DNA of 45,417 nt from an uncultured Coriobacteriia bacterium (GTDB lineage Bacteria > Actinomycetota > Coriobacteriia > Anaerosomatales > PALSA-660). Below, one piece after another: positions 21,133 to 24,296 of this stretch (positions are counted from its first letter, which is position 1; every line of letters starts with the position of its first letter). Under the pieces are notes generated by a model. The model was not told where the DNA came from. It did not search any database and worked only from the letters and a program-made list of their open reading frames with translations. Location: contig CAIKZH010000059.1 in the NCBI GenBank assembly GCA_903831865.1, positions 1 to 45,417 of the forward strand, in the 5' to 3' direction. A program made the position numbers and the translations under genes.

Positions 21133-21267
21133 CTAGGCGCTCAGGACCTTGCGTCCCTTACGGCGTCTGGCTGCGAGAACCGCTCGACCGCCTGCGGTGG
21201 CCATGCGTGCGCGAAAGCCGTGCGTCTTCGCACGTCTCCGGTTGTTCGGCTGGAAGGTCCGCTTCAT
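21133..21267 (-). CDS. rpmH: Ribosomal protein bL34
   Basis: A 44-residue ribosomal protein of the large subunit. The sequence begins [19 protein letters not shown] and continues with the usual [20 protein letters not shown], ending KVLSA. Every part matches bL34. No strong Shine-Dalgarno is present directly upstream. It is first in the rpmH-rnpA-yidD-yidC-jag operon. Confidence 0.97.
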
Positions 21268-21346
21268 AGAAGGTCACTCGATCCCTTTGAGGGCGTGGTC
21301 ATAGTCGTCAGAAGGCGTACGCGCCGCTCGGGCGCAGAGCCGCACG

Positions 21347-21376
21347 ATTGTAGCGTCGGGTCATCAAGGGTGTCAA
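21347..21376 (-). promoter_or_regulatory. Strong promoter of the rpmH operon
   Basis: Consensus TTGACA (21376-21371), an 18-base spacer and TACAAT (21352-21347) on the minus strand. This is the best promoter match in the window, as expected for a ribosomal protein gene. The transcript would start about 73 bases before rpmH. Confidence 0.85.
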
Positions 21377-21494
21377 CGAACTCGGGCCCGTTCGAGACGC
21401 GCTGGGCTTCGTCAAGCTCGTGATCCGCCCTGTCCGGCGGGCGTCATGCCGTCGTTGGTGGTTTTCGGGCGGCCGGTGAAGAAACTGTGAAATC

Positions 21495-21878
21495 TGTGGA
21501 TACTGTGGAAAACGCAGGATTCCAACGCGTTTCGCCTGTGGATAACTTGGTCGACGACGTTGTGAGCCAACGGGCGCTCTGGTAGAATCCGCGGCGTCGT
21601 TGACACGGTCTTAAGAGTAGCTCGCACCTTCAAAACCCCTGTTCAGAGGCGTGGTCGTCTCATCGAGCTCTTCATGCGCCCCCGCTCCTCCCTGGCTGTT
21701 ATCCACAGTCTCGAGGGAAGTGCGGGGGCACTGTCGTCCCTTATCCACAGTCGGGCTCGCGGAACGGCTTCGGAAAGCCCGCGATCGCTGCGCTACACCC
21801 GCTACCTACGCTTTCGTCCTGTCGTGGAGACACGCGGGCATCGCAGTTATGCACAGTTGTGGAAAGTTCTGTGGATAA
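21495..21878. other. oriC: Replication origin, DnaA-box cluster upstream of dnaA
   Basis: DnaA boxes lie in both orientations. Perfect TTATCCACA is at 21699-21707 and 21741-21749, and its complement TGTGGATAA at 21537-21545 and 21870-21878. Near matches are TGTGGATAC 21495-21503, TGTGGAAAA 21504-21512, TTATGCACA 21847-21855 and TTGTGGAAA 21857-21865. The stretch 21268-22029 has no convincing gene apart from the boxes and two opposing promoters. Strand bias of genes also turns over here. No long AT-rich unwinding element is obvious. Confidence 0.85.
21560..21588 (+). promoter_or_regulatory. Promoter toward the ATPase/HTH gene and dnaA
   Basis: TTGTGA (21560-21565), a 17-base spacer and TAGAAT (21583-21588) on the plus strand. 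The transcript would run through five DnaA boxes before the first gene, giving a leader of over 400 bases and a route for DnaA autoregulation. Confidence 0.55.
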
Positions 21879-22028
21879 CTCACGAATCCGCAGGTCGCCG
21901 GCTCTCAATGGTTTCCGGTCGCCGTGCAAGCCACAAGATGGATACGCCTCTGACCTGCGGGTTCGCATTTCGATGATCGGCTGAGGTTGTGGACGACGGG
22001 ACGGACGAGACGGGGGGCGCGACAAGGG

Positions 22029-22826
22029 GTGAAGCAGTTCTTCGATGATGACCAGAGACCGGGTCGCGTCAGGCCCGGGACTGCTTCGCGGGGCGACCTG
22101 CTCCTTGTCAGTGCGAACCGGGCGGGCGCCCGTATCGCTGTCTACGACGGACTCATCGCGGCGCCCCGCGTGGAGGATGTCGCGGCCGACGATCTGGGCG
22201 ATGCGATCGAGCAGCTCGCGTCACGTACATACAACATCGCGAGAGACAGGGGCGGTCCCATCCCATACACGATCATCCGCGAGGTCTCTGAGAACCTGAT
22301 CCACGCGGGCTTCCGTGAAGTCGTCGTGACCATCCTCGACGATGGCTTCACCATCCGATTCGCGGACCAGGGCCCTGGGATCCCCGACAAGGAGAAGGCG
22401 TTCCTTCCCGGGTTCTCGACCGCCACGGGCGACATGAAGCGTGTGATCCGCGGTGTGGGCTCCGGGCTACCGATCGTCCGGGAGACTCTATCCTTCACCG
22501 GCGGCACAGTCGACGTCGACGACAACATCTCGTGCGGCACGGTGGTGACGTTGCACGCCCCGCGACCTAAAGACACGGAGCCGGCACCGGAAGCGCCGCC
22601 TCCGGTGCCGCGCCTGAGTGACCGGCAGAAGCACGTCCTGTCGATCATTCTCGAGAGCGGCGCGGCGGGGCCTTCCGCACTTTCCAGGGAGCTCGAGGTG
22701 GGAGTGGCGACCGCATACCGCGACCTGGCTCTTCTCGAGGAAGCGGGTCTCATCGCGGCCGATGAGAACGGCAAACGGCGACTCACCGAGTTCGGTGTCT
22801 CATGCCTGGAGCGGGTGTTCGAATGA
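22029..22826 (+). CDS. GHKL (SpoIIAB/RsbW-like) ATPase fused to a helix-turn-helix
   Basis: A protein of about 265 residues placed between the origin boxes and dnaA. The middle is a GHKL ATPase: N box IREVSENLIHAGF with Glu88 and Asn89, G1 box ADQGPGIPD with Asp113, and G2 box RGVGSGLPIV near 141-149, as in anti-sigma kinases and histidine kinases. There is no phospho-acceptor domain. After a proline-rich linker, residues about 195-260 form a winged helix (LSDRQKHVLSIILESG ... VATAYRDLALLEEAGLI), of the DeoR/ArsR-like type. The start is uncertain: GTG 22029 has only GGGGGG at 12 bases, and TTG 21987 is possible. The dnaA gene begins 24 bases after its stop, so the two are likely cotranscribed. 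I do not know a defined function. Confidence 0.8.
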   Translation: MKQFFDDDQRPGRVRPGTASRGDLLLVSANRAGARIAVYDGLIAAPRVEDVAADDLGDAIEQLASRTYNIARDRGGPIPYTIIREVSENLIHAGFREVVVTILDDGFTIRFADQGPGIPDKEKAFLPGFSTATGDMKRVIRGVGSGLPIVRETLSFTGGTVDVDDNISCGTVVTLHAPRPKDTEPAPEAPPPVPRLSDRQKHVLSIILESGAAGPSALSRELEVGVATAYRDLALLEEAGLIAADENGKRRLTEFGVSCLERVFE

Positions 22827-22850: not shown

Positions 22851-24296
22851 ATGCAGCAGCTTGAGGAATCAACCCCGGTCGAGGTCGACGCCGCCGTCCG
22901 CGACCTCTGGTCACGTGCGCTCGACGTAGTCCGGGGCGAACTGAACGAACTCGTGTTCAAGACGTGGTTCCACGACACCGAGCCGCTCGGCCTGGTGGGA
23001 ACGGACATCCTCGTCTCCGTCTCGAACACGTGGGGCCGGGACTGGCTCAAGAACCGGTATTCCGGATTGCTGTCCGCGGCGCTCAGCCAGATGTCCGGTC
23101 ACGCGATGGGAGTCCAGTTCGTGGTGCGCCAGGCGCCCGGAACGATCGATCAGCAGCCGGCCGCGGTAGAGGAGACGTTCCCGGCTCGCGACGAGGACCT
23201 CGCTCCCCAGATCTCCGAGCCAGCGAGCGATGCGGGCATCTCGCCTCGGGACCCGGGGGCGTCCTCGGACCTCAGCATGCGCTACACCTTCGACCGCTTC
23301 GTCGCCGGAGACTCGAACCGGCTTGCCTATCAGTGCGCGCTCGCCGTGGCGGAGACGCCCGTCTTCAAGTACAACCCTCTGTTCATGTACGGCGGCTCGG
23401 GTCTCGGCAAGACCCACCTGTTACAGGCTATAGGCAACTACATCATCACCTACTACCCTCACCTCAAGGTCCGGTATGTCGACGCCCAACACATGGTCGA
23501 CGACTTCACCGATGCGATCCGTTCGAAGAGCATGGACAGCTTCCGCAGACGCTACCGCGAGAACGATGTCCTGCTCGTGGACGACGTGCAGGCGCTCATC
23601 TCCAAGAAGGAGACCCAGGAGGAGTTCTTCCGGACGTTCAAGGTGCTTTCCGGGGGCAACAAGCAGATCGTGCTCACATCGGACCGCCCCCCCTACGAAC
23701 TCGAGACTCTGCACGAGCGTCTCATCAGCCGGTTCAACCACGGGATGATCGCCGACATCAACCCGCCTGAGCTTGAGACCCGCGTCGCGATTCTCAAGAA
23801 GAAGGTGGAGGCAGAGGGCGGAGCCGCGGTCCCCAACGACGTGCTCACCCTGATCGCCGAGCGAGCTTCGGCCAACGTCCGTGAGTTGGAGGGGGCGCTC
23901 ATCCGCGTGCGGGCGTACGCGGTGCTCACCCCCGACCGAACGATCACCGTCGAGCTCGCCCGCGACGTGCTGAAAGGCATGTTCCCTGACAGGGCGACCC
24001 GGCCGATCTCGGTGCACACCATCCAGAACGAGGTCTGCAAGTTCTTCGCGATCCCGATGACCGACCTGGTCAGCAACAAGAGGTCGCAGAACATCGTGTT
24101 CCCGCGACAGATCGCGATGTACCTCTCGCGTGAGTTGACCGATCTGTCACTTCCCCGGATCGGCGCGGAGTTCGGCGGCCGCGACCACACGACTGTCATC
24201 CATGCCAACGCCAAGATCACGCATCTGCTCACCGAGAGACGAGAGGTCCTCAACCAGATCCAGACCCTGACCAACTCGATCCGACAGAAGAGCTGA
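22851..24296 (+). CDS. dnaA: Chromosomal replication initiator DnaA
   Basis: A 481-residue AAA+ initiator that binds DnaA boxes and opens the origin. Domain I (residues 1-95, LVFKTWFHDTEPLGL) is followed by a variable linker. Domain III starts at YTFDRFVAGDSNRLAY with Walker A GGSGLGKTHLL, Walker B VLLVDDVQ, and RFNHGMIADINPP (arginine-finger region). Domain IV carries the box-recognition helix GGRDHTTVIHANAKI. The ATG at 22851 has GGAGGT about eleven bases upstream. It lies between two groups of DnaA boxes. Confidence 0.98.
   Translation: MQQLEESTPVEVDAAVRDLWSRALDVVRGELNELVFKTWFHDTEPLGLVGTDILVSVSNTWGRDWLKNRYSGLLSAALSQMSGHAMGVQFVVRQAPGTIDQQPAAVEETFPARDEDLAPQISEPASDAGISPRDPGASSDLSMRYTFDRFVAGDSNRLAYQCALAVAETPVFKYNPLFMYGGSGLGKTHLLQAIGNYIITYYPHLKVRYVDAQHMVDDFTDAIRSKSMDSFRRRYRENDVLLVDDVQALISKKETQEEFFRTFKVLSGGNKQIVLTSDRPPYELETLHERLISRFNHGMIADINPPELETRVAILKKKVEAEGGAAVPNDVLTLIAERASANVRELEGALIRVRAYAVLTPDRTITVELARDVLKGMFPDRATRPISVHTIQNEVCKFFAIPMTDLVSNKRSQNIVFPRQIAMYLSRELTDLSLPRIGAEFGGRDHTTVIHANAKITHLLTERREVLNQIQTLTNSIRQKS

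Follow-up and report, generated by a model that had tools for sequence, protein, structure and literature searches.

A GHKL ATPase with a predicted winged helix, encoded directly upstream of dnaA in Coriobacteriia and other bacteria, is a candidate regulator of dnaA or of replication initiation

The window, i.e. the whole 45,417-nt stretch of DNA from an uncultured Coriobacteriia bacterium that was analyzed, contains an origin region in which 761 bp separate rpmH from a gene for a 265-aa GHKL ATPase with a C-terminal winged helix (hereafter the GHKL protein), the first gene of a predicted dnaA operon (Table 1). This intergenic region carries seven DnaA boxes (one mismatch or none) at 21495-21878, and dnaA begins 24 nt past the stop codon of the GHKL gene, confirming the placement of the gene between DnaA boxes and dnaA proposed in a first-pass annotation of the sequence. 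Across the 45-kb window a total of ten such boxes were observed, compared with 1.4 expected in shuffles. The open reading frame at 22029-22826 is real; its start codon is the GTG at 22029, where an N-terminal motif, [MVL][KRE]x(F/Y) or MKxFF/Y, is aligned across nearly all relatives. Within the host's order the region between rpmH and the GHKL gene (21267-22029 in the window, and its orthologous regions) is nearly constant in length, mostly about 700-780 bp, and a DnaA-box cluster of the form tccaca-GA-tgtgga-AAGNNN-tgtggaTAA lies approximately 150-190 nt ahead of the GHKL gene.

Only two promoter-like sites were found in the intergenic region: one at 21560-21588 reads forward, towards the GHKL gene, and the other, at 21376-21347, is divergent and serves rpmH by prediction. 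Both are supported by conserved columns in an alignment of 32 origins, all from the host's order. Since the forward promoter lies approximately 440 nt 5' of the GHKL gene, the predicted GHKL-dnaA transcript would cross the second group of DnaA boxes. No terminator was found between the conserved promoter or the GHKL gene and dnaA, and the gap between the two genes is mostly below 40 nt in the host's order, with overlaps in some cases. With one conserved promoter upstream and this short gap, the two genes are probably cotranscribed, as had been suggested. An Rfam search of the sequence yielded no match above the gathering threshold. A weak match to AsdA, an antisense RNA of the dnaA mRNA, was observed inside dnaA (23388-23460, minus strand; E 0.012, 26.9 bits, gathering score 52) and probably reflects the dnaA coding sequence.

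Table 1. Positions of genes, predicted signals and protein motifs at the origin region of the window.
Feature	Position	Strand	Description and basis
rpmH	21133..21267	-	Outer boundary of the intergenic region at the origin
Predicted divergent rpmH-rnpA promoter	21347..21376	-	TTGACA-18-TACAAT; promoter search, conserved columns of aligned origins
DnaA boxes, first group	21495..21545	-	21495-21503, 21504-21512, 21537-21545
Predicted GHKL-dnaA promoter	21560..21588	+	TTGTGA-17-TAGAAT, extended -10; promoter search, conserved columns of aligned origins
Second motif, copy A	21632..21650	+	AAAACCCCTGTTCAGAGGC; exact copy just 3' of the promoter
DnaA boxes, second group	21699..21878	mixed	21699-21707 (+), 21741-21749 (+), 21847-21855 (+), 21870-21878 (-)
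Second motif, copy B	21884..21902	+	GAATCCGCAGGTCGCCGGC; weak, immediately past the DnaA-box cluster; read from the sequence, equivalent position conserved in the order
Second motif, copy C	21946..21964	-	GAACCCGCAGGTCAGAGGC; exact copy 65-83 nt ahead of the GHKL start
GHKL (HATPase_c) ATPase gene	22029..22826	+	First gene of the predicted dnaA operon
N box	22278..22307	+	R84 E85 xx E88 N89 LI H92 A93; invariant or nearly so in 42 sequences
G1 box	22365..22382	+	D113-Q-G-P-G-I118; conservation
G2 box	22452..22469	+	G142-V-G-S-G-L147, at the end of the ATP lid; conservation
Predicted winged helix	22614..22820	+	Residues 196-264; Pfam, conservation, model
Recognition helix of the winged helix		+	Residues 226-238, here VATAYRDLALLEE; conservation, model
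dnaA	22851..24296	+	

According to Pfam, residues 80-180 of the GHKL protein match HATPase_c above its cut-off (E=1.3e-12). For residues 196-262 there are matches to several winged-helix families, all below their curated cut-offs (E 1e-5 to 1e-3). An AlphaFold2 model built from 42 input sequences (mean pLDDT 86.9) places a Bergerat fold at residues 33-178 and, beyond a short linker, a winged helix at residues 198-263, with residues 1-28 disordered. Pfam, conservation and the model agree on a GHKL/HATPase_c fold, with N, G1 and G2 boxes including the catalytic E and the Mg-binding N, and the sub-cut-off Pfam matches together with the model indicate a wHTH fold. The first-pass description of an ATP fold joined to a winged helix, its N, G1 and G2 boxes all intact, holds. 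Its further label of "anti-sigma-kinase type" is imprecise, since by sequence the domain is closer to the catalytic domains of histidine kinases (HATPase_c) than to HATPase_c_2 (E=0.14).

Conservation was examined in 28 sequences from the host's order and 42 sequences from several phyla. N89, H92, D113, G115, P116, G117, G128, G142, V143, G144, G146 and L147 were invariant in both sets, and E85 was retained in 41 of the 42 multi-phylum sequences; this pattern argues for a working ATP site. Within the host's order the winged helix is conserved to nearly the same degree as the ATP domain (0.74 versus 0.75), and the recognition helix is its best conserved part (0.83), which speaks for a DNA target that is conserved within lineages. 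Judging from sequence and model, the GHKL protein is predicted to bind ATP at the Bergerat site and DNA via the winged helix.

Searches of the open-access literature found neither a described family nor a paper on a dnaA-adjacent GHKL-winged helix gene, in agreement with the earlier statement that no function had been assigned to it. As far as that literature goes, the family is previously undescribed; it is deeply conserved and single-copy. A separate full-length model (not the 42-sequence AlphaFold2 model) was used as a Foldseek query. The best PDB match was DIP2311 (PDB 3lmm; E 6e-8), followed by histidine-kinase catalytic domains. DIP2311-type proteins likewise combine a GHKL-like domain with a winged helix, but identity to the GHKL protein is 17-18%, the overall superposition is poor (TM 0.42-0.45), and the DIP2311 type has no known linkage to dnaA. 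These proteins correspond to COG2865, with AlbA_2, HATPase_c_4 and winged helix domains; membership of the GHKL protein was rejected, as AlbA_2 and HATPase_c_4 were both absent from Pfam searches at E up to 10. With the CA domains of histidine kinases (HATPase_c) the protein shares the ATP fold and the N, G1 and G2 boxes. Unlike those kinases it lacks a DHp/HisKA domain, a sensor and a membrane part and carries a predicted DNA-binding winged helix; Pfam gave no HisKA match, only HATPase_c and wHTH, and a sensor histidine kinase was thus rejected. A relation to defence systems was also discarded, the matches being limited to the winged helices of CRISPR-associated regulators.

The genomic position of the gene was compared across genomes. 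The first-pass annotation had named absence or random placement of the gene in close relatives as refuting, and neither was observed. In a named set of GTDB genomes, dnaA was found directly downstream on the same strand at 80 of 80 loci. These loci belong to Coriobacteriia, Candidatus Aquicultor, Subteraquimicrobium, Oleimmundimicrobium, Armatimonadetes, Terrabacteria group ANGP1, UBP13 and Bacillota/Clostridia. Among 60 relatives, every strong orthologue sharing a contig with dnaA lay directly upstream of it, and most genomes without the GHKL gene were also without a dnaA contig. The gene was present in 266 of 298 genomes of the class, in 118 of 296 genomes of the phylum sample, and in 26 of 249 genomes sampled from the phylum of one Bacillota MAG, where it adjoined dnaA whenever the contig was shared. 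The adjacency also holds in Coriobacteriales-like families and in other classes when circular ends are counted. Where the gene is present, the only exceptions in the order, in other classes and in Bacillota are contig breaks or ends. The GHKL gene heads the predicted dnaA operon in Coriobacteriia, in several other Actinomycetota classes, and in some lineages of Bacillota and of Armatimonadota-like phyla. Each of 12 genomes from outside the order contained one copy, and the GHKL tree correlated with the dnaA tree (r=0.53, compared with at most 0.28 in 200 permutations). Vertical, single-copy, phylum-wide conservation rules out a mobile element or recent insertion.

Losses were also observed. 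Loci L142, L143, L144, L145 and L146 keep dnaA without the adjacent GHKL gene, and the stretch from rnpA to dnaA is otherwise intact in the first four. The genomes with this intact stretch and no GHKL gene are G017, G028, G032 and G065 (L145), and in G311 dnaA is present with no GHKL gene beside it. Since these lineages have dnaA, the GHKL gene is not universally essential, and L142-L146 constitute useful natural knockouts.

A second recurrent element, with a consensus of about RAAMCNSCWGNTMANNRSC and a core of AAACCGCAGGTCA, was detected in the aligned origins. The window contains two exact copies, and three copies were found at up to one mismatch versus 0.21 expected. In the order, sites are located mainly at -90 to -105 (minus strand), -150 (plus strand) and -405 to -420 (plus strand) from the GHKL start. 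Strong matches numbered 49 in the 800 nt ahead of the gene and 1 elsewhere in about 466 kb of twelve-kilobase loci, counts that express concentration and are not an independent test, since most of the origins counted had also served to train the scoring matrix. Beyond the training set, the motif was also found in several families of the order, and in 7 of 7 Aquicultor-like origins the best match, a counterpart of copy A in the same orientation, lay at -437 to -442. In origins from Bacillota and Armatimonadota-like phyla, where the GHKL gene is present, the motif was weak or absent. Three of four GHKL-less origins lack it, and G065 (L145) keeps a strong copy.

The GHKL protein is hypothesized from these patterns to bind the second motif. 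However, a site specific to this protein genome-wide was rejected, owing to extra exact copies beside tRNA-like att fragments and in viral contigs. The 18-base consensus AAACCGCAGGTCAGAGGC occurs in at least 120 IMG/VR viral contigs (e.g. L185-L264), and in relatives' genomes (L177-L183) it lies right past tRNA 3' ends or tRNA-like att fragments, in several cases with another copy approximately 80 nt further on. It looks like a widespread motif of phages and integrative elements, and the motif alone therefore cannot identify its binder.

The location of the GHKL gene at the origin in the window and directly ahead of dnaA in hundreds of bacteria suggests that it probably encodes an undescribed regulator of dnaA or of initiation. 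The more specific reading, a DNA-binding regulator that responds to nucleotides and acts on the dnaA operon and/or the origin, is about evenly poised between right and wrong on the present sequence and model evidence. According to this reading, the protein would bind both ligands as a dimer, ATP in the Bergerat site and DNA through the winged helix, and would act in cis between rpmH and its own start, i.e. on the DnaA-box array and the operon promoter, with the second motif as its putative binding site. Expression of dnaA and/or assembly of the initiation complex would then be set by the protein, depending on its nucleotide state or a partner. Both dimerization and the effect on dnaA or initiation are presumed here, and the protein may couple energy state to initiation.

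Origin neighbourhoods are generally conserved, so position by itself is no proof of function. The GHKL protein could instead be a general one-component regulator of other genes, held in a slow-moving origin block in the manner of rpmH, yidC, jag and rsmG. Indeed yidC, jag and rsmG, without a role in initiation, are retained in the same block, and the loss of the GHKL gene from a few lineages is in keeping with such a passive association. We regard this as unlikely, considering that in different phyla the gene stays next to dnaA despite divergence on the rnpA side or where no recF was found beside dnaN, that so short a gap to dnaA would permit cotranscription or translational coupling, and that the best candidate binding motif is concentrated at the origin. 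A SpoIIAB/RsbW-like protein kinase or ATP-dependent anti-factor, which would bind or phosphorylate a partner (possibly DnaA) and use the winged helix for localization or protein contact, appears rather unlikely. SpoIIAB/RsbW proteins are likewise small, cytoplasmic and of the GHKL fold, the E and N of the SpoIIAB N box are four residues apart as are E85 (nearly invariant) and N89 here, and structures of anti-sigma F factor were matched weakly by phmmer (E 0.39-0.45). Nevertheless, membership of that family was rejected because HATPase_c_2 scored 12.6 bits against a cut-off of 27.4, and because the neighbours are rpmH/rnpA and dnaA/dnaN, the adjoining open reading frames including neither a sigma factor nor an anti-anti-sigma gene. 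Furthermore, the GHKL protein differs from SpoIIAB/RsbW by its extra winged helix, which in the order is conserved as well as the ATP domain.

An orisome accessory with an architectural or loading role like that of IHF/Fis or DnaD, for which ATP would be no signal but a structural or cycling cofactor, would account for the several copies of the second motif at fixed spacing among the DnaA boxes. The recurrence of its consensus by att-like sites, as seen for host-factor sites elsewhere, would also fit. However, several lineages have lost the GHKL gene with no visible replacement beside dnaA, and the ownership of the motif by the GHKL protein is itself putative; we consider this explanation improbable.

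A regulator of dnaA or of the origin would share its site of action, DnaA or the origin, with YabA, SirA, Soj, DnaD and Spo0A, the known regulators of initiation in Gram-positive bacteria. To our knowledge, none of these is a GHKL ATPase and none heads the dnaA operon. The GHKL protein might represent a new cross-phylum class of initiation regulators, an ATP-sensing GHKL-winged helix protein with its own motif interleaved with DnaA boxes, whose nucleotide state would set initiation or dnaA expression; this broader proposal, derived from sequence comparison and modelling, is tentative, with the balance tilted against it. Ties between initiation and physiology are poorly known outside the main model bacteria, and a single-copy gene that adjoins dnaA across phyla, and whose product combines an invariant ATP site with a predicted DNA-binding domain, provides a concrete candidate regulator.

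Orthologues from Coriobacteriales-like families (L124, L126 and L130) are encoded by open frames of about 370-520 aa with a long insert at the junction of the ATP domain and the winged helix; this group also shows a longer linker and greater divergence of the winged helix. Considering the size of the group, an orthologue is probably also present in culturable gut Coriobacteriia on the Eggerthella/Collinsella side, which would make direct testing possible.
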